In this document: positions 828 through 55,269 of the stretch, one piece after another | Numbering within the stretch: the first letter of the stretch is position 1 | How the letters are laid out: the number at the start of each line of letters is the position of its first letter | Virus record (IMG/VR): IMGVR_UViG_3300032236_001583 | Span: 1-64,000 of that record | Source: a virus | Strand: one strand, 5' to 3' | Length of the DNA: 64,000 nt | Made by a program: the position numbers and the translations under genes | The notes under the pieces: model-generated | Database searches by the model: none | Seen by the model: only the letters and a program-made list of their open reading frames with translations | What the model was told of the DNA's origin: nothing

Positions 828-3727
828 AAGAGGTTATCTCTCAGGAAGTTATCGAGAGCTTCTTGAACGGTGGTGACGACGAGTTGTACATCGTCGGTAT
901 TGAATACGAGTATCGCACCAACACAATTTACAAAATTATACAAGACCCAGAAAAGGGTAAAATCTTAAAAACAGACACAACATTCACACCATTTATTTGG
1001 GTTGGTGATTTATCTAATTTAAATTTTTACAGAGGTTCTAAAGCTACCCAGAAAAAGAAAATGCAGGAGTGTGGTATTTTAATTGAAAAATTAGAAACAT
1101 ACGGAAATGAAAGATTAGAGAATGGAATGAAATATCTTGTTAGAAGTATCAAGAGTTATACTGATTTAATTGCTTTTTTTAGACAAGGTGGATTAAATCC
1201 ATGGGATGAAGAGTATAGAAAATATTTCACTGTGTTGAATCCAGTTGAACAATATCTAATACAAAAAAAGAAAAGATTATTTAAGGGCATTGATGATTAT
1301 AATGACATTTATCGATTTGTATTTGACATTGAGACTACTGGTCTTGATCCTTTAACTGAAAAAATAATTTTGATTGGAGTTAAAGATAATAAAGGTTTAC
1401 AAAGAACAATTTCAGCTTTTGGTGAGGATGGTGAAAAGAAATGTATTGAAGAGTTTTTCGAGATTATTAGAGAATTGAAACCAACTATTATTGGTGGTTA
1501 TAATTCAGCTTCTTTCGACTGGCCGTTTATATTGAAACGAGGTGAAATATTAGGAGCAAACATTGAAGGTTTAACACAAATTTTTACAAATGAAGGTATT
1601 AGAGAAAAAGAAGGTATGCTTAAGCTTGCTAACGAAGTTGAGCCATATACACAGCATAACATATGGGGATTTAATATTATTGATATCGCGCACGCTGTTC
1701 GTAGAGCACAAGCAATCAACTCGGAAATCAAAAGTTGGGGATTAAAGTATATTACAAAATATTTGGAGAAAGAAAAACCAAATCGTGTTTACGTTGATGG
1801 TGGTAAAATTTCTAAAATATATCTTGATAATGAAACTTATTATGTTAATCCAAAAACAGGAAATTATAAACAAATAGGTGAGCCTGGTACTGAAGATTTA
1901 TTAACAAAATATCCTGGTAAATTTGAGATATGGCCTGGTAGAAAAATAGTAGAACAATATCTTGATGATGACTTGTATGAAACAATGATAGTTGATGATT
2001 CATTTTCACAATCAACATTTTTGTTATCAAAATTGGTACCTACAACATATGAGAGAATTGCTACAATGGGTACAGCAACATTATGGAAAATAATCATGTT
2101 AGCATGGTCATATGAAAATAATTTAGCAGTTCCAGAAAAAGATGAGAAGAGAGCAATTACTGGGGGTTTATCAAGATTATTAAATGTTGGTTACTCTAAG
2201 AATATTGTTAAGTTTGACTTTGCATCTCTTTATCCATCTATTCAATTGGTATATGATGTGTTTCCTGAATGTGATGTTATGGGAGTACAAAAATCAATGT
2301 TAAAGTATTTCCGTAATATTCGTATTAAGTATAAGCGTTTAGCTGGTGAATTGAAAAATAGTGATCCTGTTGCAGCTGAAATGTATGATAGAAAGCAATT
2401 ACCAATTAAGATTTTTATTAACGCTTACTTTGGTAGTTTATCTGCTCCGCATGTATTTCCTTGGGGTGATATGAATATGGGTGAAACAATTACATGCGTT
2501 GGTCGTCAATGTCTTCGCATGATGATTATGTTTTACATGAAGAAAGGTTATAAGCCTTTGGTAATGGATACGGATGGTGTTAACTTTGAGACACCAGAAA
2601 ATATTGATGATACGAGATATATCGGTAAAGGATTAAATGAATTAGTTGAAAAAGGAAAGGAATATAAAGGCATTGAAGCTGATACTGCAGAATTTAATGA
2701 TGTGTTTATGAGAAATGAAATGGGATTAGATATTGACTATATTGCACCTGCATGTATTAATGTCTCTCGTAAAAACTATATCATAAAATTATTAAAGAAA
2801 GGTAAAGAAAAAATAAAATTAACAGGTAATACAATTAAATCTAAAAAAATGCAACAGTATATTGTTGAGTTTTTAGATGAAGGATTAAAGATGTTATTGA
2901 ATGGTGATGGAATTGGTTTTATTGAATTGTATTATGATTATGTAAATAAAATTTATAATCAAGAAATACCATTATCTAAAATTGCAAACAAAGCACGTGT
3001 TAAACAATCTGTAGATGATTATAAAAAACATATAACTAAAACAACAAAATCAGGTTCATTAATGTCCAGACAAGCACATATGGAATTGGTTATGTTAAAC
3101 AATTATCAAGCTGGGTTAGGTGAAACAATATATTATGTTAATAATGGTAAAAAGAAATCATCTGGTGATGTGCAGAAAATAGCAAAACCATCTAAAAAAG
3201 CTAAAGAAGAATTCTTAGCAAAAAATGGTTATGAAATGCCAAATGATTATTTAGAAGTTAATTGTTATATGATACCTGAAAAAGATATATTAAATAATCC
3301 AGATCTTAAGGGTGAATATAATGTTGCTAGATATCTTAACATTTTCAATAAAAGAATTGAACCATTGTTAGTTGCATTTAGACCTGAGATAAGAGAAGAC
3401 GTTTTAATTGAAAGTCCAGAAGAAAGACAATACTTTACAAAATCACAATGTGAATTAGTTAATGGGTTCCCAATGAAAGAAGAAGGTCAGGACAAGTTAG
3501 AAGAAGTCATGACATTATCTGATAGTGAAGTAATGTTCTGGAATAGAGTTCAACGAGATCCTTATTTCATGTATGTTGAAAATACATTAGAATTGGCTGA
3601 TCAGTATTGGGTTGAACACAATAGAAAAGTATTAAACTTCCAAGCTGAAAGTATTAAAGTGGCAAATGAAGATGAGATAATCGAAACTAATGGAAATGAC
3701 TTTGCATTCCACGCAGTTGAAATTTAG
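824..3727 (+). CDS. 43: Family B DNA polymerase with 3'-5' exonuclease (T4 gp43-like)
   Basis: Replicative DNA polymerase, 967 residues (T4 gp43 is 898). Exo I is seen as FDIETTGLDP with D168 and E170. Palm motif A is DFASLYPSIQ (D465). Motif B is KIFINAYFG (K529, N533, G537). Motif C is MDTDG (D582, D584). The order and spacing fit a complete, active T4-type enzyme. Motif C is unusual: families usually read (Y/G)DTDS, here the flanking residues are M and G. The 5' end is noticeably less AT-rich than the rest of the gene. The start at 824 overlaps the stop of a 21-codon leader ORF. The stop interlocks with that of gene 13 on the opposite strand. It would act at the fork with helicase 41, primase 61 and gp32, all encoded in this window. 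Confidence 0.96.
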   Translation: MKEVISQEVIESFLNGGDDELYIVGIEYEYRTNTIYKIIQDPEKGKILKTDTTFTPFIWVGDLSNLNFYRGSKATQKKKMQECGILIEKLETYGNERLENGMKYLVRSIKSYTDLIAFFRQGGLNPWDEEYRKYFTVLNPVEQYLIQKKKRLFKGIDDYNDIYRFVFDIETTGLDPLTEKIILIGVKDNKGLQRTISAFGEDGEKKCIEEFFEIIRELKPTIIGGYNSASFDWPFILKRGEILGANIEGLTQIFTNEGIREKEGMLKLANEVEPYTQHNIWGFNIIDIAHAVRRAQAINSEIKSWGLKYITKYLEKEKPNRVYVDGGKISKIYLDNETYYVNPKTGNYKQIGEPGTEDLLTKYPGKFEIWPGRKIVEQYLDDDLYETMIVDDSFSQSTFLLSKLVPTTYERIATMGTATLWKIIMLAWSYENNLAVPEKDEKRAITGGLSRLLNVGYSKNIVKFDFASLYPSIQLVYDVFPECDVMGVQKSMLKYFRNIRIKYKRLAGELKNSDPVAAEMYDRKQLPIKIFINAYFGSLSAPHVFPWGDMNMGETITCVGRQCLRMMIMFYMKKGYKPLVMDTDGVNFETPENIDDTRYIGKGLNELVEKGKEYKGIEADTAEFNDVFMRNEMGLDIDYIAPACINVSRKNYIIKLLKKGKEKIKLTGNTIKSKKMQQYIVEFLDEGLKMLLNGDGIGFIELYYDYVNKIYNQEIPLSKIANKARVKQSVDDYKKHITKTTKSGSLMSRQAHMELVMLNNYQAGLGETIYYVNNGKKKSSGDVQKIAKPSKKAKEEFLAKNGYEMPNDYLEVNCYMIPEKDILNNPDLKGEYNVARYLNIFNKRIEPLLVAFRPEIREDVLIESPEERQYFTKSQCELVNGFPMKEEGQDKLEEVMTLSDSEVMFWNRVQRDPYFMYVENTLELADQYWVEHNRKVLNFQAESIKVANEDEIIETNGNDFAFHAVEI

Positions 3728-4842
3728 ATAACGTTAATAGCACTTTGAATTGGTCTATACTTAAGCGACTTGTTTAAGTTTTCCGCTTCATTTGCTTTTC
3801 TCTCCATCATTTTATCTGGACGAAGACGTTCTAATCTAGCCATCAGTTCTTCTAATAATTTAGATTTTTCATCTTTACCTTCAGTAATTAATGATGAGTA
3901 ATCTAATTTAACCGAACTATCAGGAACTTGTAAATCACCTGAGAATTTACCCCAAATTCTACCTAAACCTTCTTTGGAATATGCGATTAGATATTTTCTA
4001 ACCCAGTTCTGAGAAGGTTTATTTAATTTATCCCAAGTTAATTCTTCTGTCATTACATCGGAAGGTAATTTGATAATATCTTTGTTGTCATTCAAGCAAC
4101 TATCTCTATCCATAGTATCATAGTACCAATACCATACTTGATAGTTGTTACTTTGTAAGTTAGAGAAATCGTATTTACCACCAGGTACATTGTAAAGGTG
4201 TACTAATTTCTTTCCTTCTGGACCAGCAGTAATTCTATATGTAACATCTCCACCAATTAAACGGTTTTTGATATTTCTATCACCCATTCTTAATAATAAG
4301 TCAAATGCAGGAAGCATGAAATATGATCCTGATGAACCCACCTGAGCAAATCCACCCACACCACCAAATCCAACACCGCCAAGACCACCAAATCCACCCA
4401 AGAATGGGTCAACGATAGAATCGGTTAAGGTTGCACGTGTAAACCATAATAACTCGTTAATTTCACGACCAGCGGGAATTTCATATACTTGTTGATTAGA
4501 ATTTAATGTAAAAAAGTCCTTTTTAAGCTCCCAATCACCACCAGCTTGTAAACCAACAATCTTAGAATACGCATACGTATACTGAGTTTCGTAATCTAAA
4601 CTTCTAGTTGTAAACGCTCTACTTAATGATTGTGTGTCAACATCTAAACCAATTAAAGCTGACCATTGTGATTCGATTAACCAGTCATTGACATATTGTT
4701 CGTATTCAGATATTGACAATTCTAAAAAAGTATCCATTTGCTCCTCTGTAAGTTCAATACCACGAACTGGCATACCTAAAAGGTGTAAAACCTGTGTAAA
4801 CAGTTTATCTTTCTCCGCTTGTGAAATAATAGTACTTGACAT
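3724..4842 (-). CDS. 13: Neck protein, head-tail connector (T4 gp13-like)
   Basis: 372 residues on the minus strand (T4 gp13 is 309). The N-terminal stretch HLLGMPVRGIELTEEQMD followed by SISEYEQY matches the gp13 pattern (a short helix, then LGxPxxxVELTxxQ, then an acidic helix containing Tyr). Near the C-terminus NWVRKYLIAYSKEGLGRIWG is followed by a basic, acidic helix, again as in gp13. In the family this protein binds gp14 to close the filled head and accept the tail. A Gly/Phe-rich insertion (around residues 148-168, GGFGGLGGVGFGG) is peculiar to this protein. A TATTTATA motif lies 15 nt upstream on the coding strand. Its 3' end overlaps the polymerase stop by four bases. Confidence 0.75.
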   Translation of the reverse strand: MSSTIISQAEKDKLFTQVLHLLGMPVRGIELTEEQMDTFLELSISEYEQYVNDWLIESQWSALIGLDVDTQSLSRAFTTRSLDYETQYTYAYSKIVGLQAGGDWELKKDFFTLNSNQQVYEIPAGREINELLWFTRATLTDSIVDPFLGGFGGLGGVGFGGVGGFAQVGSSGSYFMLPAFDLLLRMGDRNIKNRLIGGDVTYRITAGPEGKKLVHLYNVPGGKYDFSNLQSNNYQVWYWYYDTMDRDSCLNDNKDIIKLPSDVMTEELTWDKLNKPSQNWVRKYLIAYSKEGLGRIWGKFSGDLQVPDSSVKLDYSSLITEGKDEKSKLLEELMARLERLRPDKMMERKANEAENLNKSLKYRPIQSAINVI

Positions 4843-5075: not shown

Positions 5076-6845
5076 TTCTTTCAATAGGTCTTTACTGAAT
5101 GATTCTGAATAATCTCCGTCGCCCATAACCTGGTCAATCACATTTTTCTTCTTTTGCAAGATATTGTAAATTATCTTTTCAATAGTATTCTCAAAAATCG
5201 GGTAATAAACTAATACGCTATTTTTCTGACCATATCTATATGCACGATCTTCGCCTTGAGAATGGTCAGCAGGTACAAATGATAAGTCATTCATAATAAC
5301 GACTTCGGCAGCTGTTAATGTTATACCAACACCAGCGGCTTTAATGTTACCAATAAAAACTTTAATTTTATCTTCATTTTGGAATCTATCAACAGATTCT
5401 TGTCTTCTGTCTTTTGACATTCTACCATCTAATACAACTGAATTTTTTTTGTATTTCTCATGAATCATATCTAATGACATCGTAAAGTTAGTTAAAACAA
5501 TTACTTTTTTACCCTGTTCTATACACCTATCAATTAACTCACATGTATATGGAATTTTTTCATAGGCAATTAATTGTCTAATTTTCATTAAACGATTCAA
5601 AGTAACTGTTAATGTTTCTTCTTCTTTTTTGTCATTACTTATGCGAGTAAAATCATCTAATTCTTCTTCATACATTTTAGAATTTAACTCAATAAAAATA
5701 GGAGTTACAATTTTTTCTGGTAAATCTAGAATGTCTGTTTTCATTCGTCTAAGAACAATGTTTTTAGTCCTTTCTCTTAATTCATCTAAATTACTTGCAC
5801 CACTTGTATTCCATACTTTCCTATTACCAACCTTAAATTGAAATCCTTTACAATAACGTCTAACATATGTTTGCCAATTAAGTGTTAAAGGTGATTCAAC
5901 AATTTTCAATAAGTTGAAATAATTTATTGGTCTAGATGTCATAGGTGTTCCAGTTAATAACCATACTTTAGGTATCTGTTCTAAAACATCATTTAATAAT
6001 CTAGTTCTTTGTGCTGTATTGTTAGAAATATAGTGAGCTTCATCAACAATAGCCAACTCAAATCCAGCATTAACTAATAATTTGTAATCGTCACTATCTT
6101 CACTTTTATCAGTTGAATGATAATTTTTAATAATATCATAATTGATAATGTAAAAATCAAATGTTGATCCCCATTTACGGCCTTCAACAATTAAAACTTT
6201 ACGATCTGAGTAGTTTTTAATTTCTCTTTCCCAGTTTATTTTTAGAGATGCTGGGCATACAATTAAAACCTTTTTGGCTTTGCTTTCTAATGCTGCAATT
6301 ACAGCTGATGTTGTTTTACCTAACCCCATGTCATCAGCTAAAATAAATTTGTCATTTGCTAATAGTTTTTCAATTGCAATTTTTTGATGATCCATAGGTG
6401 GTCTAGTAGAGTATACAGAATAATCAATTTCTCTATTTAATTTCTTTTCTGGTTGAACTACAGCTGCTTTAGGTAACCACATAGCATGTAATGGTTCTGT
6501 ATCGATAATTTTACCCCATATGTGAAATGCTTTGTCACTTTCACATAATAATTTTTCACACCATATTTTTTCTGGTGCAATTGGTAATAATTTTTCTTCT
6601 TGTATTTTTTCACCAAATGTGCTAACAATTTCAATATATTTTCTAGCAACCTTAGGGTTGATATCTTTATATTTTATAACATATTCAGCTTGTGGTCTAG
6701 TTAACTTGAAATTTTTAATATCCCTAAACTTTCTCTTGTATTCCAATAATTGATTATTTGAGCCTTCATAAGACTCTAATATCTCTTTTGCTACTATTTC
6801 TGGTATTTTGGTTTCCATATTCTTATAATAATATAAGTAATTCAT
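5067..6845 (-). CDS. SNF2-type superfamily 2 helicase/translocase
   Basis: 592 residues. Motif I is ADDMGLGKT (170-178), motif II DEAH (268-271), motif III LTGTP, and motif VI QGEDRAYRYGQ (530-540), all of SNF2/SMARCAL1 type rather than of T4 UvsW or Dda type. The roughly 145-residue N-terminal part before the helicase core resembles a small DNA-binding extension. Expected role: ATP-driven DNA translocase that remodels forks or recombination intermediates, perhaps in place of UvsW, for which no candidate is seen here. The next in-frame Met is residue 10 (start 6818), and without a Shine-Dalgarno signal I cannot decide between the two starts. The gene sits between virion genes but has no TATTTATA motif, which suggests expression at a different time. 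Confidence 0.9.
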   Translation of the reverse strand: MNYLYYYKNMETKIPEIVAKEILESYEGSNNQLLEYKRKFRDIKNFKLTRPQAEYVIKYKDINPKVARKYIEIVSTFGEKIQEEKLLPIAPEKIWCEKLLCESDKAFHIWGKIIDTEPLHAMWLPKAAVVQPEKKLNREIDYSVYSTRPPMDHQKIAIEKLLANDKFILADDMGLGKTTSAVIAALESKAKKVLIVCPASLKINWEREIKNYSDRKVLIVEGRKWGSTFDFYIINYDIIKNYHSTDKSEDSDDYKLLVNAGFELAIVDEAHYISNNTAQRTRLLNDVLEQIPKVWLLTGTPMTSRPINYFNLLKIVESPLTLNWQTYVRRYCKGFQFKVGNRKVWNTSGASNLDELRERTKNIVLRRMKTDILDLPEKIVTPIFIELNSKMYEEELDDFTRISNDKKEEETLTVTLNRLMKIRQLIAYEKIPYTCELIDRCIEQGKKVIVLTNFTMSLDMIHEKYKKNSVVLDGRMSKDRRQESVDRFQNEDKIKVFIGNIKAAGVGITLTAAEVVIMNDLSFVPADHSQGEDRAYRYGQKNSVLVYYPIFENTIEKIIYNILQKKKNVIDQVMGDGDYSESFSKDLLKELL

Positions 6846-7385: not shown

Positions 7386-8645
7386 ATGGGAATACCTAAA
7401 AAAAGAAAAACTAATATCCAGATTTACAAAGGAACTGAACTGACTCAGAGAAGACAGGAGTTATTGGATATGGTTACAAAATCAGATACAAATTTACCAG
7501 ATTCAATATTGCACGATGATTTGGATAAGGGATTCTTGGATTATATTGTAAAGAATTTTAGAATTACGTCAGATGGTAAAGAAATACCGGTAATTGAAAA
7601 GATACTAACAATCCAAAGATGGGGTGAATTTACTAATAACTGGACTTTTTCAGATCAGGATAGTAATATGTCACTTCCATTTATCGCTATAATTAGAAAA
7701 CCTGAAGTTCAATTTGGTTCACATCCAGGGGCACAAAGAACGATACCAGATAGAGCACAGCTTTATTATGCATCAGTACCAACTTGGAACGGTACACAAA
7801 TGGGTGCAGATATCTATACTATACCTCAGCCTATCCCAATTGATATTAACTTTACGGTTACTATTGTATGTACGAAGTTTAGAGACTTAAACAAATTCAA
7901 TAGAAAGGTTATGGAACATTTTGCTTCCAGACAAGATTATGCTATTATTAAAGGTCATTATATTCCATTAATTTTAGATACAATAGACGACTCAAGCCCT
8001 ATTGATACAATTGAAGGTAGAAGATTTTACATCCAAAATTATAACTTTACTATGATGGGTTATTTGATGGATAGTGAGGAATTTGAGGTTAAACCAGCTA
8101 TTAGTAGATTATTCACTGTTTATGAATTCTTGAAAGGTGATAAAAAAATAACTAAGAAGTTTGTTAATAAAAATGTTAATGTAACTGTAGCAACTTTTGT
8201 TGCCGATGGTACTCAAACAGTTTTTAGTGTTGGTGAAAGTATTGGTACTTTGTTTAATGTGTCAGTAAATGGTATTATTCAGATTATTGATCAGAACTAT
8301 ATTCATATCCCATACACATCTAAAATTGAATTCATACAAACGCCAGGTGAGCCAACATTCCCATTACAAGGTGATGTAATTAGAATCACATATTATAAAG
8401 GAAGAAATAGTGTAATATTGGATAATACTGGTAAGTTATTAATGGACGCAAACGAGATATTCACATATACAGGTGGGCCAGCGGTTTTTACAACTCAAAG
8501 TGCAATCAATAGCATTGTAAGTTTGGATGTGAACGGTCTTGTTGAAGATGAGGGAAGAGGTTATCATATAACTGGTAATCAAGAAATTACATTATTAGGT
8601 ACCCCAGTTCCGGGTTCTAAAATTGGTGTGACTTACTTATATTAA
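7386..8645 (+). CDS. 15: Tail terminator / proximal sheath stabiliser (gp15-like) with C-terminal extension
   Basis: 419 residues (T4 gp15 is 272). The core, roughly 55-245, carries PIPIDINFTVTIVCTKFRDL, a helix with HFASRQDYAII, and YNFTMMGYLMDSEEF, in the order of the gp15 fold (tail-terminator family, ring at the top of the tube). Residues about 250-419 are extra: two successive beta domains, each with a strand ending in VNG (FNVSVNGII and SLDVNGLVE), a Tyr turn, and a closing I-x-V/I-T-Y strand (IRITYY, IGVTYLY). The family caps tube and sheath and binds the neck. The stop interlocks with that of the minus-strand ribbon-helix-helix gene. Confidence 0.75.
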   Translation: MGIPKKRKTNIQIYKGTELTQRRQELLDMVTKSDTNLPDSILHDDLDKGFLDYIVKNFRITSDGKEIPVIEKILTIQRWGEFTNNWTFSDQDSNMSLPFIAIIRKPEVQFGSHPGAQRTIPDRAQLYYASVPTWNGTQMGADIYTIPQPIPIDINFTVTIVCTKFRDLNKFNRKVMEHFASRQDYAIIKGHYIPLILDTIDDSSPIDTIEGRRFYIQNYNFTMMGYLMDSEEFEVKPAISRLFTVYEFLKGDKKITKKFVNKNVNVTVATFVADGTQTVFSVGESIGTLFNVSVNGIIQIIDQNYIHIPYTSKIEFIQTPGEPTFPLQGDVIRITYYKGRNSVILDNTGKLLMDANEIFTYTGGPAVFTTQSAINSIVSLDVNGLVEDEGRGYHITGNQEITLLGTPVPGSKIGVTYLY

Positions 8646-8923: not shown

Positions 8924-11386
8924 ATGGCAAGTAACAACAGAGTTTTCGTATCTCCAGGGGTTTATACTTCAGAGGTCGATTTAACGTTCGTAGCGCAAAG
9001 TGTAGGTGTAACTACGCTTGGTTTAGCAGGTGAGACACTAAAAGGTCCTGCATTCGAACCAGTTTTAATTTCAAGCTTTGACCAGTTTAAGACATATTTT
9101 GGAACAACATCACCAGAGAAATTTGGTAATGGTTATCCAAAGTATGAATTACCTTATGTGGCAAAGTCTTATTTACAAGAATCAAATCAATTATTCGTAA
9201 CTAGAGTTTTAGGATTAACAGGGTATAACGCAGGGAAATCTTGGGGTATTGTTACTTCAAGTACAAATCCTGATTATGATGGAATTGCTGTAGCTGTAAT
9301 TAGATCAAGAGGTCATTATAGCGGACAAACATTAGTTTTTGAGGTAACAGCTAATACAGGTGTTACATTTTCAGATGTTAGTGGTGTAACAACAAATCCA
9401 TTAGCTTTATTTAATATTCATGTTAAAAATGCAACAGGTTCAACTTTTGATTTCCAAGCATCTTTAGACCAATCAAATACGCAATATATTACAAATGTAT
9501 TGGGTGTTAGCAATACTGACAAGGACAAAGGTTCAGTACCAGTATATGTTCATGAAGTATATCCAAACCTAGTTTTAGATTTATTTTCACATGGTTTAAT
9601 TCAAGGTTTAAGTTTAACATCAGCAGTAAATGCTGAGGCAGATAACTTCTTGAAAGAATACGACACACCAATGTCACCAACTATCGTTTCTGAAGTTCGA
9701 GGTGGTAATGTTGACGATTTATTTGATATTATTACAGTTTCTGATGGTGATGCAGCAAACCAATTAATTAAAGTTACCTTTATGAATATTAATATTGATA
9801 CTGGTGAATTTGATATTTTAGTTCGTGATTTCAATGATACGGATGACAATATGGTTGTATTAGAGAAATTCAGTAGATGTTCTATGAATCCAGATGTTGC
9901 GGGTTATGTGGCAGCTAAAATTGGTACATCAGATGGTGAATACGCATTAAATTCTAGTTATATCATGTTAAACATGGCTGATAATGCGCCAGTAAATGCA
10001 TTCCCAGCAGGATTTAAAGGATTCCCAATAAACAATAATTTTGGTGGAAAAACAGCTGGTGGTGTATTATACAAAACAAGTTACTTAAATTCAGGTGATA
10101 TTGCTTATACTGGATCAACTGGTACTCCAGTAATATCAAATGGTGATAGATACAAAAAAGTAAGTTTAGGTTTATCAAGCCAATATTCATATAGCTTTGA
10201 CGCTGATTTATTCAAGTTTAAGGGTAAAAATGTTGTAGGTGCAACTAAAGGTTTCCATTTATCAACAAATGCTGATACTGACATATTTGATGTTACACCA
10301 TATGATTTAGAGGGTCAAACTGAAACATCAGATGGCCAAAACAAATTGAAAGATCAAAACTATCGTAAATTTACTTTAGCAGTAGCTGGTGGATTTGATG
10401 GTTGGGATATCTACAGAAGTGGTAGAACTAATTCTGATCAATTTATCTTTGGTAAATCAACATACATAACTGGTAGTACAACACATGGTGGTGTATTCAG
10501 TACAACTGTTGGTAATTCAGATTACTATGCTTATTTACAAGCAATTGAAACATATCAAAACCCAGAAGCGGTTGATATTAACGTATTTGCAACTCCAGGT
10601 ATTGATTGGTATAACCACAATTCTTTAACTACTCAAGCAATTGATATTATTGAAAATGATAGAGCTGATTCAATTTACATCATGAACTCTCCAGGTCCAG
10701 TAGATTTTTCAGGAACAACAGCAGCAACAGAAATTGCTGATCAATTGGATACTTTAGGTTATGATAGTAACTATTCAGCTACATATTGGCCTTGGATTCA
10801 GGTTAGAGATACTGACAATGCAACACAAATCTATCTTCCACCAACAGGTGAAGTAGTTAGAAATATTGCTTTAACAGACAATGTTTCTTATCCTTGGTTT
10901 GCAGTTGCGGGTTATAGTAGAGGTATTGTTAATTCAATTAAAGCAGCTAAAAAGCTTACTCTTGACGAAAGAGATGAATTATACAAATATAGAATTAACC
11001 CAATTGCTACATTCTCAGATACTGGTACCATTATTTGGGGTAACAAAACTTTACAAGTTAGAGAATCAGCTTTGGATAGAATTAACGTAAGAAGATTATT
11101 GTTAAGAGCTAGAAAATTAATTTCAGCTGTAGCTGTTAGATTATTATTCGAACAAAATGATGATCAAGTAAGACAAGAATTCTTAAGATTAGTTAATCCT
11201 ATATTAGATTCAATTAAAAAAGAAAGAGGTTTATATGACTTCCGTGTAAGTGTATCAAATGCACCTGAAGATATAGATGCAAACACACTTAGAGGTAAAA
11301 TTTATGTAAAACCTACTAGATCATTAGAATTTATTGATTTAGAATTCGTAATAACTCCAACAGGAGCATCATTCGAAAATATATAA
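8924..11386 (+). CDS. 18: Tail sheath protein (T4 gp18-like)
   Basis: 820 residues (T4 gp18 is 659). The N-terminus has VFVSPGVYTSEVD, the usual sheath strand that links neighbouring subunits. The C-terminal domain carries LTLDERDELYKYRINPIA, then IIWGNKTLQ, ALDRINVRRLLL and the closing LEFIDLEFVI strand, all hallmarks of contractile sheaths. The middle part, roughly 120-480, is variable and longer than in T4, probably surface-exposed. The protein polymerises around the tube and contracts on infection. A TATTTATA motif and a 36-nt leader precede it and a strong intrinsic terminator follows, consistent with a separate, highly expressed transcript. Confidence 0.95.
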   Translation: MASNNRVFVSPGVYTSEVDLTFVAQSVGVTTLGLAGETLKGPAFEPVLISSFDQFKTYFGTTSPEKFGNGYPKYELPYVAKSYLQESNQLFVTRVLGLTGYNAGKSWGIVTSSTNPDYDGIAVAVIRSRGHYSGQTLVFEVTANTGVTFSDVSGVTTNPLALFNIHVKNATGSTFDFQASLDQSNTQYITNVLGVSNTDKDKGSVPVYVHEVYPNLVLDLFSHGLIQGLSLTSAVNAEADNFLKEYDTPMSPTIVSEVRGGNVDDLFDIITVSDGDAANQLIKVTFMNINIDTGEFDILVRDFNDTDDNMVVLEKFSRCSMNPDVAGYVAAKIGTSDGEYALNSSYIMLNMADNAPVNAFPAGFKGFPINNNFGGKTAGGVLYKTSYLNSGDIAYTGSTGTPVISNGDRYKKVSLGLSSQYSYSFDADLFKFKGKNVVGATKGFHLSTNADTDIFDVTPYDLEGQTETSDGQNKLKDQNYRKFTLAVAGGFDGWDIYRSGRTNSDQFIFGKSTYITGSTTHGGVFSTTVGNSDYYAYLQAIETYQNPEAVDINVFATPGIDWYNHNSLTTQAIDIIENDRADSIYIMNSPGPVDFSGTTAATEIADQLDTLGYDSNYSATYWPWIQVRDTDNATQIYLPPTGEVVRNIALTDNVSYPWFAVAGYSRGIVNSIKAAKKLTLDERDELYKYRINPIATFSDTGTIIWGNKTLQVRESALDRINVRRLLLRARKLISAVAVRLLFEQNDDQVRQEFLRLVNPILDSIKKERGLYDFRVSVSNAPEDIDANTLRGKIYVKPTRSLEFIDLEFVITPTGASFENI

Positions 11387-11703: not shown

Positions 11704-12192
11704 ATGGCAGATTTACTAATGAAAATGCCGGTTCCTTTTGAACCAAAAAGACAAAACCGATTTATCTTAAGATTCCCTTCTTCAATGGGTATAAACGAAT
11801 GGTATGTGGCTTCAACTGCTAGACCTTCTGCTAAAATTAATTCAGTAGCAATTCCTTTCTTGAATACTTCAACATATGTGGCTGGTAGATTCGAATGGCA
11901 GGAAATGAGAGTTACTTTTAGAGATCCAATCGGTCCTTCAGCTTCTCAAGCTTTAATGGAATGGTTCCGTTTACATGCTGAATCAGTAACAGGTCGTATG
12001 GGATACGCTGCAGGTTATAAAAAAGATATCGAATTAGATATGCTAGACCCAACAGGTGTTGTTGTTGAAAAATGGAGCATTGTTGGTGCATTTTTAACAG
12101 ATCTTAACTTCAATGAATTAGATTATTCAAGAGATGATATCGCAACTATCACATGTTCTTTGAGAATGGATAGATGTATCCAAATATACTAA
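11704..12192 (+). CDS. 19: Tail tube protein (T4 gp19-like)
   Basis: 162 residues, the same length as T4 gp19 (163). The protein shows the family pattern PFEPKRQNRFILRFPSSMGI at the N-terminus, a central strand EWQEMRVTFRDPIGPSAS, then DIELDMLDPTGVVVEKW and a C-terminal strand pair LTDLNFNELDY / ATITCSLRMDRC. It forms the inner hexameric tube through which DNA passes. It lies right after the sheath as in T4 and has its own promoter motif and terminator, so it is an independent transcription unit. Confidence 0.95.
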   Translation: MADLLMKMPVPFEPKRQNRFILRFPSSMGINEWYVASTARPSAKINSVAIPFLNTSTYVAGRFEWQEMRVTFRDPIGPSASQALMEWFRLHAESVTGRMGYAAGYKKDIELDMLDPTGVVVEKWSIVGAFLTDLNFNELDYSRDDIATITCSLRMDRCIQIY

Positions 12193-12292: not shown

Positions 12293-13042
12293 ATGGAAAA
12301 TTACATGGTCAACCCAACAATAGCTTATGATGTAGTAGAATTACCAAGTAGAGGAATATACTATGACAATAAGAAGAAATCGGTAAAAGTATCTTACTTA
12401 ACTGCTTCAGATGAGAACATATTATCATCACCAAATTTATTACAAACAAATACAGTAATTGAAGAATTACTTAAAAGAAAGGTTTTAGATAAAGACTTCA
12501 ATGTTGATGAATTGGTTGAAGAAGATAGACAAGCGGTTTTAATTTTCTTAAGGAATACTGCATTTGGTTCAACATACAAAATTACAGCAACTGACCCTAA
12601 AACTGATTTACCATTTGAGTTTGAATATGATTTAACAAACTTGAAAACTAAAGATTTTACATTAATTGAAGATGTTAATGGTGAATATTCATATAGAATG
12701 CCAAAGTCTCAGGTGGATGTTACCTTCAAGTTTTTGACTAAAAAACAAGAAGATGAGTTAAAGAAAATAGAAACAAGTTGGAATGGTATTGGTGTTGCGC
12801 CAATTAAAACAAAAGAGCTTGAATTTATGATTAGAACTGTTCAAGGTAATAAAGACCCACTTAATATTAAAAATTTTGTGGAAAACTTACCTATTACAGA
12901 TTCTCAAAACTTTAGAAAATACGTTTCAGACAATAAACCAGGAATTGATCTAACAGCAAATGTAACAACCCCATCAGGAGAAGATATCCAATTAGTAATA
13001 GGATTTGGGGTAGAATTTTTTCGCCCTTTCTACTCAATATAG
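12293..13042 (+). CDS. 26: Tail assembly chaperone / baseplate hub assembly protein (gp26-like), zero-frame product
   Basis: 249 residues. The N-terminus VVELPSRGIYYDNKKKSVKV followed by LTASDENIL is the recognisable start of the T4 gp26-type baseplate protein family. A charged middle region and a C-terminal VIGFGVEFFRPFYSI follow. It sits between the tube gene and the tape measure, the canonical place for tail assembly chaperones, which coat the tape measure protein during tail growth. In many phages a minority of ribosomes shift frame near the end of this gene to make a longer second chaperone. A T6C slippery run and a 1-frame-offset ORF are present here at exactly that point (see next entry). 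The leader has no clear TATTTATA motif. Confidence 0.75.
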   Translation: MENYMVNPTIAYDVVELPSRGIYYDNKKKSVKVSYLTASDENILSSPNLLQTNTVIEELLKRKVLDKDFNVDELVEEDRQAVLIFLRNTAFGSTYKITATDPKTDLPFEFEYDLTNLKTKDFTLIEDVNGEYSYRMPKSQVDVTFKFLTKKQEDELKKIETSWNGIGVAPIKTKELEFMIRTVQGNKDPLNIKNFVENLPITDSQNFRKYVSDNKPGIDLTANVTTPSGEDIQLVIGFGVEFFRPFYSI

Positions 13043-13175
13043 GAAAGCACAATTAGACGAAATTTTATTTTTAGTAAAACGAGGATTTTCATATAATGAT
13101 ATTCTTTCTATGCCAGTTTACATTAGAAGATATTATGTTGATTATTTAATTGAATTAGAAAATAATTCTAACTAA
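13014..13175 (+). CDS. Frameshift-accessed C-terminal extension of the tail chaperone
   Basis: In the +1 frame relative to gene 26, after a TAG at 13011, runs an ORF of 53 codons with no usable ATG at its beginning. It encodes AQLDEILFLVKRGFSYNDIL and then MPVYIRRYYVDYLIE, a pattern (hydrophobic helix, GF-Y turn, MP-x4-R-x-Y helix) common in the second tail chaperone of many phages. It overlaps the last ten codons of gene 26, and the overlap contains TTTTTTC (13016-13022). A +1 or -2 slip there would give a fusion of about 293 residues. It ends 14 bases before the tape measure start. Whether the frame change is programmed, or a one-base error in the assembly, cannot be decided from the sequence alone. 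Confidence 0.6.
   Translation, partial: NFFALSTQYRKAQLDEILFLVKRGFSYNDILSMPVYIRRYYVDYLIELENNSN
13016..13022 (+). promoter_or_regulatory. Candidate slippery site TTTTTTC
   Basis: Zero-frame codons are GAA TTT TTT CGC. The Phe tRNA in the second TTT can re-pair perfectly with TTC (+1) or with TTT two bases back (-2). Both lead into the extension frame, downstream of the TAG that closes that frame at 13011-13013. Confidence 0.5.
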
Positions 13176-13189: not shown

Positions 13190-15214
13190 ATGGCAAATAT
13201 TGATTTTGAAACAATTGGTAAAAATGCAAAAGCTGATAAACTTGATGAGGCGCAAGCGATAAGTAGAGCTAAAATAGCTAATAGTGGTAAAGATTTGAGT
13301 TTATCTGAAATGAATTCTTTTACAAAAGGTTATATCGGTAAAGGTCTCAAAGATACCACAGGTAATTCTGCGACTGGTGCAGCAAAAAGTATTGGCGGTG
13401 GTTTATTGGATTTAGCTAAAGATAGTAACGCACCTGGTGCTCCTGAATTTGTTGGTTTAGATTCTTATGCTAAAGGTATTACAGGTATTATTAAAGCGGT
13501 TAAAACTGGGGACGGTGTTTCAGGAATATGGAATGTAATAAAAGGTGTTGCAAATCAAGGTATTGAGTTTCTTAATGAAGAAAAGAATATAAGAAACAAG
13601 ATTAATGCTGAAATGGGTGTTACCGGTAAATTAGGTAACGATGTTAGAGATTCAATAATGTTATCTGCACCAGCAGCTTATAAATTAGGATTTGGTGTTA
13701 GTCAAGTAACAGAAGAATTTACAAAATTAAACGAGACATCAGGTAGGTTTAATTTCATGTCAAAAGAGATTGCTGAAGAATCATTTAAGACTGCTAAAAT
13801 GATGAATATCTCATTAGCAGATATGGGTACAACTTATGGTAATTTCGAAAGAATTGGTATGGGTTTTAAAGATACCACAGTTTCACTTAATGAAGCATTT
13901 ACTAAATCATTAAGAATGGGTTTAAGTGGTACTCAAACAACAAAAGATGTTAGAGAGAATTTAGGTAAACTTAATGAATATGGTTTCAAGAATGGTGTTC
14001 AGGGGTTAGCGGAAATGTCTAGAATTGCTAAAATTTTTAGAGCAGATATGAGTGATGCGTTTACTTTAGCAGACAAAGTTATGGACCCAGAAGGTGCAAT
14101 TGGATTAACAGCTAATTTACAAGCTTTAGGTGGTGCAATTGGTGAATTTAATGACCCATTCAAGTTAATGTATGATGCAACTAATAATGTTGAAGGATTA
14201 CAAAAAGCGATAATTGGTGCCGCTAAAGATTTAGCGACATACAATAAAGAACAAGGTAGATTTGAGGTTACTGGTGCTAATATAAGAAGAGCACAAGAAA
14301 TGTATAAGATAACTGGTATCTCAGTTAAAGAATTGACAACGATAGCAATTGCAGGACAAGAAAAAGTTCTTGGTTTACAACAACTTGCAATGTCTTCAAT
14401 GACAAATATCAAAAAAGAGGATAAAGATTTCTTATTGAATCTAGCACATATGGAACATGGTGAAATGGTTATCAGTATTCCAGATTCATTAAGAGATAAG
14501 TTTGGTAAAATAGCTGAAGATGGTACAATTCCAATTAGAAAGCTAACAAATGAAACTAAACTTCAATTGGAAAGATATCAGGATGAATTTAAGAAAATGA
14601 ATCCGGAAGATATTGCTAGAGGTCAATTTACTGCTTTACAAAATATATCTCATGATGTGGCATCAATTACTGCATATGTTAGATCACAAATGGTAAGAAG
14701 CGGTGGTGCGGCATTAAAAAATTTACCATTAGAAGAAGGATTCCAATACGCTGCTGGTCAGTTAAATTTACAAACATCCAAACTATTAGAAGGAGTTCAC
14801 AATGGTCTTAAAATGAGCAATGCTGTTGGTGAAATGACTAAAAAAGCTTTAGATTTTTTAACTGGAGGTAACGTTAGTAAAGCAACAGCATGGATGAAAA
14901 AAGCGGAAGATAAATTCTTAGATGAAGAAAGAGCTAGAGAAAAGAAAAAACAAGCAAAAATATTAGGTCCAACAACTGACACAGATAATGATAGATCGTT
15001 AACTGAAGAGGTTATGAATGGGTCTAGCGTTGATGATAGAGGAACTGCTATGAATACACCATCAGAAAGAACAATTAATGTTAACCAAACAGTTTCATTT
15101 AGAGCTTCTGATAGTATTGGTGCTGAATACGCTAGATTAATGGATAAAAACCATTTACTAAAACAATCATTTACAAATCAAGAGAGTAAAGACTCATATT
15201 TGTACGCTGGTTAA
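13190..15214 (+). CDS. Tail tape measure-like protein (gp29 position)
   Basis: 674 residues (T4 gp29 is 590), mostly predicted helical, with Ala/Gly/Lys-rich stretches and no Cys-rich or catalytic motif. Its place directly after tube and chaperone genes, its length and its helical character are those of a tape measure protein, which spans the tube lumen and sets tail length. Residues about 60-130 contain small-residue helices (SATGAAKSIGGGLLDLA), residues about 200-420 a regular helical array, and about 560-600 a highly charged helix (KAEDKFLDEERAREKKKQAK). I saw no sequence match that would prove homology to gp29; the call rests on synteny and composition. Confidence 0.7.
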   Translation: MANIDFETIGKNAKADKLDEAQAISRAKIANSGKDLSLSEMNSFTKGYIGKGLKDTTGNSATGAAKSIGGGLLDLAKDSNAPGAPEFVGLDSYAKGITGIIKAVKTGDGVSGIWNVIKGVANQGIEFLNEEKNIRNKINAEMGVTGKLGNDVRDSIMLSAPAAYKLGFGVSQVTEEFTKLNETSGRFNFMSKEIAEESFKTAKMMNISLADMGTTYGNFERIGMGFKDTTVSLNEAFTKSLRMGLSGTQTTKDVRENLGKLNEYGFKNGVQGLAEMSRIAKIFRADMSDAFTLADKVMDPEGAIGLTANLQALGGAIGEFNDPFKLMYDATNNVEGLQKAIIGAAKDLATYNKEQGRFEVTGANIRRAQEMYKITGISVKELTTIAIAGQEKVLGLQQLAMSSMTNIKKEDKDFLLNLAHMEHGEMVISIPDSLRDKFGKIAEDGTIPIRKLTNETKLQLERYQDEFKKMNPEDIARGQFTALQNISHDVASITAYVRSQMVRSGGAALKNLPLEEGFQYAAGQLNLQTSKLLEGVHNGLKMSNAVGEMTKKALDFLTGGNVSKATAWMKKAEDKFLDEERAREKKKQAKILGPTTDTDNDRSLTEEVMNGSSVDDRGTAMNTPSERTINVNQTVSFRASDSIGAEYARLMDKNHLLKQSFTNQESKDSYLYAG

Positions 15215-54375: not shown

Positions 54376-55269
54376 ATGGCAAGATCAATATATCTGAACT
54401 TTAATAATAGTACTCAGATTAAATCAGATAATACAAGTACCTTTACGGTAACGACTAATTATTATTCTGGTTCAACCAAAACATTGATAAATGGTGGCAA
54501 TTCCGATTATTCTAATTGGGATAGTACATCATATCAAATTTATTATGGCGGCGCCGGTAACGACAACAATATCACTTATAGTTTCGGTTTATATGACACA
54601 TTTGCAAGTCAAGAACAATATACGGGTTTAACATATTCAACATTTAATGGCGCAAATTATGCTGTTAATGTAAATCCTGGTGCAGGATTAATTGAAATAG
54701 ATGCTAGTGGTGAATGTCATACTACAGCATTTGGTGAAGTTACATCGGTAACACCAGGTCAAGTAGCTGTTGTAAGTGGTGATACGGTATATAGTCAATA
54801 TTCACCAAGTAACTACACTGGTTCTGGATTAAATTATACAGCATATACACACCAAGATTTAACACAAATATCAACAATAGATGCACAAGGTAATCCAATG
54901 CCACCAGCACTTGTTGTTAGATGTGTAAATACTAACTTTGATTCACATTCAGGTGATACCGTAACTTTAACAGTTCAATATACTGGAGTAACATATGTTT
55001 CTGGCGGAACATCAACAACAACCACATATACCGGTCAGTTCCCACCAGTAACATTTAATAGATCATTATCAAATGGTTACAATGGTACTGATGGACCATC
55101 ATCAAATCCGTCATCACAAACTTTTACTAAAATTTACGATTTCTTACCTGACCAAGTACCAACCATTGGTATTCATAGAGGACTTTGGACTTTCAATGTG
55201 TCAATAACAAGTAACAACACATATGCAAGTAACAAGTATGGTATGGCATTTATGATTAATAACGGATAG
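54376..55269 (+). CDS. Virion structural protein, beta-rich
   Basis: 297 residues, Thr/Ser/Tyr/Gly-rich with few charged residues. Regular strand segments (TFTVTTNYYSGSTKT, ALVVRCVNTNFDSHSG) suggest a beta-sandwich or fibre domain. It has its own TATTTATA motif and may end at the inverted repeat that follows. It lies between two fibre/baseplate operons. No family recognised; a role in fibres or whiskers is plausible. Confidence 0.55.
   Translation: MARSIYLNFNNSTQIKSDNTSTFTVTTNYYSGSTKTLINGGNSDYSNWDSTSYQIYYGGAGNDNNITYSFGLYDTFASQEQYTGLTYSTFNGANYAVNVNPGAGLIEIDASGECHTTAFGEVTSVTPGQVAVVSGDTVYSQYSPSNYTGSGLNYTAYTHQDLTQISTIDAQGNPMPPALVVRCVNTNFDSHSGDTVTLTVQYTGVTYVSGGTSTTTTYTGQFPPVTFNRSLSNGYNGTDGPSSNPSSQTFTKIYDFLPDQVPTIGIHRGLWTFNVSITSNNTYASNKYGMAFMINNG

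Follow-up and report, generated by a model that had tools for sequence, protein, structure and literature searches.

The gene at positions 12293–13042 (+ strand) of the window, the 64,000-nucleotide stretch of viral DNA that was analysed, very probably specifies a tail-assembly chaperone of the T4 gp26 type and contains a site of programmed +1 ribosomal frameshifting, as judged from sequence comparison. A frameshift in a tail chaperone had been proposed in a first-pass annotation, and the +1 form of it is strongly supported by relatives in which both reading frames and the motif TTT_CGN are kept. Well over a hundred related phage sequences share this arrangement with the window.

According to the proposed mechanism, most ribosomes would end at the zero-frame stop and release a short chaperone of 249 residues (G). 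A minority would pause with tRNA-Phe on UUU (13019–13021) because the rare arginine codon CGC would be slow to fill the A site. The Phe tRNA would then re-pair with the overlapping UUC, and translation would resume in the +1 frame at GCC, adding a T domain of three helices to give a 293-residue fusion (GT). On the model of λ G and GT, the tape measure would be coated by both products, with T bringing in the tube subunits; gp26 and gp51 would be the T4 proteins with these roles. In the clade to which the window belongs, a hairpin would refold behind the ribosome and favor forward movement. The first-pass annotation did not include the rare A-site codon, the upstream hairpin, the relationship to gp26 and gp51, or the relatives with a -1 arrangement.

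Gene order and reading frames

The chaperone gene is preceded by genes for a tail sheath protein (8924–11386, + strand; PF04984 and phrog_23) and a gp19-like tail tube protein (11704–12192, + strand; PF06841, E = 1.2e-6; phrog_4542, E = 6e-24), and is followed by an open reading frame of 674 amino acids (13190–15214, + strand). The latter is a putative tape-measure protein by position; a tape measure is annotated in Flavobacterium phage immuto, Bacillus phage SP-15 and LIS04. A search of this reading frame against Pfam and PHROG gave no match, and a BLASTP comparison with the immuto tape measure identified no similarity. The location between tube and tape measure given in the first-pass annotation therefore holds on the upstream side, where the tube gene could be identified, and is putative on the downstream side. 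The identification of the gene as a tail chaperone was supported by matches of the 249-residue product to two profiles of the T4 gp26 family, PF12322 (E = 1.5e-6; 28.5 bits, above the curated cut-off of 24.5) and PHROG_150 (E = 9e-10).

The coordinates in that annotation (zero-frame end at 13042, TAG at 13011 and a +1 frame running to 13175) were also reproduced. The zero frame stops at a TAG (13040–13042), and the +1 frame, closed by a TAG at 13011–13013, is open from 13014 to a TAA at 13173–13175. Six T residues (13016–13021) and a C (13022) lie just inside this opening. When TTTC is translated as a single step, the stretch from 12293 to 13175 (+ strand) yields the predicted gp51-like fusion of 243 + 50 = 293 amino acids. 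The T domain comprises 50 residues and the TAA (13023–13175, + strand) and is conserved in all relatives.

Within the window alone, an overlap of this kind is unremarkable. Several of the 31 long open reading frames have at least 40 codons open beyond their stop in another frame, and such extensions are mostly genuine next genes. Since the chaperone overlap is not rare by this measure, the case rests on comparison with relatives. The reading frames at 54376–55269 and 7386–8645 have 41–51 codons open in the +1 frame beyond their stops. No tRNA genes were found within the window.

Conservation of the two frames and the slip site

Alignment with relatives, which had been suggested as a check on the first-pass proposal, found both frames conserved. 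An initial scan of IMG/VR produced 22 usable relatives that were 65–82% identical, as well as a 23rd contig (L023) that carries indels in the gene; the 249-residue zero frame and the +1 frame were kept in 22/22. A profile scan gave 80 loci with identities down to 38%, all of which have a zero-frame stop soon past the site followed by the +1 domain, except for L042, which is cut by the contig end. All 80 non-redundant relatives have both the in-frame stop and the domain in the +1 frame. A scan with a DNA pattern only returned at least 120 stretches, and 79 loci among those listed were read. The +1 reading was at least 35 amino acids long in 78 of these listed loci, 78/78 encode a domain matched by the T profile, and 37 among the matches listed have T sequences that had not been seen before. 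The single genome locus found with a closer alignment belongs to an Erysipelotrichaceae MAG and has the site TTT_CGT. Among the loci examined, none had the zero frame and T joined in one continuous frame. Past the zero-frame stop, only the +1 frame is free of stops, with several in the other two, and changes among relatives in this part of the T region number 1381, 964 and 2327 at +1-frame codon positions 1, 2 and 3, a bias towards the third position. From this comparative evidence, the two-frame overlap is far beyond chance and, as in a λ-type G/GT pair, both frames are conserved together with the shift site.

The slip site TTT_C (13019–13022, + strand) overlaps the slow A-site codon CGC (13022–13024, + strand). 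Codon statistics were compiled for the 80 non-redundant relatives, with counts that are non-independent through phylogeny. The P-site codon is TTT in 80/80 and the A-site codon is CGN in 78/80 (CGT 31, CGG 25, CGC 19, CGA 3), with TGG in the other 2. All 78 arginine codons at the site are CGN, as opposed to 72 of 686 (10.5%) elsewhere in these 80 genes. Of 27 CGG codons in the same genes, 25 sit at the slip-site position alone, and a count of further in-frame TTT CGN within the 80 genes found none. In the long reading frames of the window, CGC accounts for 10 of 19,499 codons. Since all four CGN codons are used, the retained element is the first C, which is needed for re-pairing. The window thus has the features of a UUU_CGN +1 site, namely an in-frame TTT CGN and a product in the +1 frame, and the +1 slip of the Phe tRNA from UUU to UUC put forward in the first-pass annotation agrees with the comparison.

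The same annotation had allowed for a -2 shift like that of Mu, in which the Phe tRNA would move back from UUU to the upstream UUU of the T6 run and reach the same frame. The run and its C are present in the window and in 76/80 relatives, where they would permit such a move, but the conserved element is TTT_CGN and not T6. The site reads TTC TTT CGN in L003, L021, L040, L081 and L084, and again in a second clade (L028, L128, L136, L142 and L152), so that a -2 move would place the Phe tRNA on TCT and the re-pairing run expected of a Mu-type site is not kept. A -2 shift also leaves unexplained why the slip codon is so strictly followed by C, and why CGN is used over the favored AGA. It was rejected as very improbable. 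A slip on the first Phe codon is excluded by the TTC TTT variants. Transcriptional slippage on T6, with mRNAs one base shorter or two bases longer, would draw on a homopolymer that is present in most relatives. Six T residues are short for polymerase slippage. The TTC TTT relatives retain the +1 domain with just a T3 run and slippage would not select CGN, which makes this origin extremely improbable.

Separate production of T, by internal initiation or by reinitiation after the G stop, is improbable, although a separate small reading frame is annotated at this place in SP-15, immuto and Atu_ph07. The first half of T has no conserved upstream start codon: its sole conserved methionine is in an MP motif halfway along, and the earliest ATG of the +1 frame in the window sits in the corresponding MPVYIRR motif. 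Separate translation explains neither TTT_CGN nor the alignment of the fusion with gp51, described below. A broken gene, or an error of one base in sequencing or assembly, has a precedent in the indels of contig L023. About a hundred contigs, however, show the same two-frame layout and stop position, as do annotated isolate genomes, and this conservation already refutes an error, the likelihood of which is negligible. Two further options in the first-pass annotation, a one-base assembly error and a slip at ATA-TAG, are both excluded on this basis.

The second clade, which lies far from that of the window, resembles Bacillus phage SP-15, which is 25% identical to the window (alignment A6). At least 18 of its loci have TTT_CGN, with CGN in 18/18 at the site versus 19.8% elsewhere, and T is in the +1 frame in the complete loci. 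Variants include TTT CAY (SP-15 and L151) and TTT TGG (L157). One subclade (L145, L148–L150, L154 and L155) lacks TTT_CGN, and its CCC_AGT is probably a +1 site; it recalls the proline-codon +1 sites of Listeria phage PSA. Among wider kin, the variants are TTT TGG (Microcystis phage Mel-JY01, L095 and L102), CTT TGG (immuto), TTT CTA (LR756508) and TTT CCC TAA (QdP_Psa3). In Rhizobium phage LG08 (L123, gene at 2480–3181) and Agrobacterium phage Atu_ph07 (L035, gene at 2947–3789), a T-like domain is instead found in the -1 frame over T_TTT_TTC, a classical -1 heptamer. The predicted direction of the shift thus differs among members of one chaperone family, which appears to keep the two-product outcome and change the route.

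Structure of the products and relationship to T4 gp26 and gp51

G and T were folded separately in AlphaFold. The model of G (pLDDT = 88) is disordered at residues 246–249, which follow the slip site, and T is predicted to be a compact arrangement of three helices (pLDDT = 92). With VIA-align, the only PDB matches to G at Z ≥ 5 were 3fgx (RBSTP2171), 3klu (YqbN) and the HK97 tail assembly chaperone 2ob9. While the scores are middling (Z = 5.0–5.6), they are consistent with a chaperone of tail assembly. Among the BFVD matches of G are T4-like baseplate hub proteins, that of SP-15 included. A search of the PDB with T identified no match, nor did a search of the window's own T peptide alone against protein families. 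The T peptides of 16/59 relatives matched Pfam DUF6760 (best E = 1.7e-4, alignment A5), a family that may represent a tail-chaperone T domain. A literature search for a link between DUF6760 and contractile injection systems found no paper. In database records, the T region is annotated as separate small 'hypothetical proteins' at 5854–5964 of L025, 3764–3883 of L036, 3891–4013 of L035 and 5728–5964 of L026. Across the annotated isolate genomes that were examined, T is annotated either as a separate small reading frame or not at all, and is never joined to the chaperone.

The two predicted products correspond in extent to the T4 baseplate hub chaperones. On PHROG_150, which has 282 positions, the short form of the window covers 14–233 and gp26 covers 14–235, while the fusion covers 14–279 and so aligns over all of gp51, which covers 13–280. 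Both gp26 and gp51 match PF12322, and gp51 has 48 residues past it. The C-terminal family of gp51, phrog_634, was matched by the T peptides of 11/59 relatives (best E = 6.6e-7), though not by that of the window. A T profile aligned with the gp51 family at the gp51 C-terminus (hhalign, E = 7e-4). A direct hhalign comparison of G with T4 gp26 gave nothing significant, so the link between them is drawn from PF12322 and PHROG_150. An examination of T4 genes 26 and 51 for a frameshift found none. T4 has two separate genes where the window has a single gene with a predicted +1 shift.

Read most simply, these alignments would make gp26 and gp51 the counterparts of λ G and GT, encoded by split genes. 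In the literature searched, which was limited to open-licence papers, no such assignment was found. A review describes frameshifting of G/GT type as broadly conserved among long-tailed phages, 'except T4' (PMC5009743), and a split into gp26 and gp51 may explain this listing. The comparison suggests that T4 is not a true exception: gp26 and gp51 resemble the short and the long form, and a single gene appears to supply both in many T4-type relatives.

Several known systems share part of this arrangement. In λ, the tape measure is coated by G and tube subunits are brought in by T (PMC5009743), and the frameshifted gene likewise lies after the tube gene and before a large tail gene (Levin 1993; Xu 2004; PMC5009743). 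The λ shift is -1 at a heptamer, in contrast to +1 at TTT_CGN, and the window proteins are members of the T4 gp26 family, unlike λ G/GT. Influenza PA-X and the plant amalgaviruses use UUU_CGN as their +1 motif (PMC5052127), with the P-site codon, A-site codon and direction of the window; these are RNA viruses of eukaryotes, and the proteins are unrelated to the chaperone. A TTT-CGC +1 shift between tube and tape measure, as in the window, was proposed in 2020 for the tail chaperones of the HF1-group haloviruses (PMC7230728). These are archaeal viruses, and the passage on this shift mentions no upstream hairpin. The HF2 chaperone falls in phrog_14268/12163 rather than PHROG_150, and shares no PHROG with the window at E ≤ 1. 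Either the motif is convergent, or the homology is too distant for the comparisons that were used. The predicted shift lies in the T4-type chaperone family, which was thought to be without one, and would extend the influenza PA-X motif to many phages.

An upstream hairpin

The outer stem of a hairpin is formed in the window by ACCCCA (12968–12973, + strand) and TGGGGT (13006–13011, + strand), with 7 nt between the latter and the slip codon. From an ungapped alignment of 78 sites, with 77 distinct sequences used for pairing, the outer stem (-51 to -46 with -13 to -8 relative to the slip codon) is paired in 95.9% of cells. The inner helix is paired in 71% in one register, and the window's subclade has a shifted register. 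The covariation score of 0.263 compares with 0.202 ± 0.008 for shuffles and 0.177 or less when the arms are slid. At third-codon positions, the pair -49/-10 covaries (CG 70, AU 4; Fisher 2e-7, uncorrected for phylogeny). When codons were shuffled synonymously, the mean z was -2.05 at the hairpin and approximately -0.2 elsewhere in the gene; the hairpin of the window itself is no more stable than its shuffles (z = -0.1). A good stem is missing in a few relatives (L059, L060 and L062), and a search for the hairpin in the SP-15-like clade found it to be absent. An Rfam search with the region and with the whole window produced no accepted match.

The GGGG of the 3' arm could instead act as an internal Shine-Dalgarno sequence. 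Pairing is favored over this reading by 4 sequences that exchange CCC/GGG for CAC/GGU-type pairs, and by L058, where the stem is replaced by GGGCACCA/UGGUGCCC. With UUU in the P site, the 3' arm of the hairpin would occupy the mRNA exit region, as judged from ribosome footprints, and the hairpin could re-form only upon forward movement of the ribosome. The chances are about even that the hairpin is a stimulator that favors forward slippage in the window's clade. An upstream refolding hairpin would be, to our knowledge, a kind of +1 stimulator not known in phages. The bypass of T4 gene 60 has an upstream hairpin. There too, a hairpin behind the ribosome is a possible forward driver, although gene 60 involves a ribosome bypass of 50 nt (PMC5009743) as opposed to the one-base shift predicted here. 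The covariation provides an RNA element for the study of +1 shifting.

As a tentative joint reading, somewhat short of an even chance, T4-type phages would shift +1 at UUU_CGN, with a hairpin containing GGAGAA in its bulge refolding behind the ribosome in a large clade to drive it forward, and T4 genes 26 and 51 would be the split remains of an ancestral recoded gene. The 5' bulge, UCAGGAGAA, is conserved. As TCAGGAGAA (columns 13–21 of alignment A2; 12974–12982 in the window), its conservation goes beyond that of the protein sequence. The bulge resembles a Shine-Dalgarno sequence and is located approximately 40 nt upstream of the slip site.
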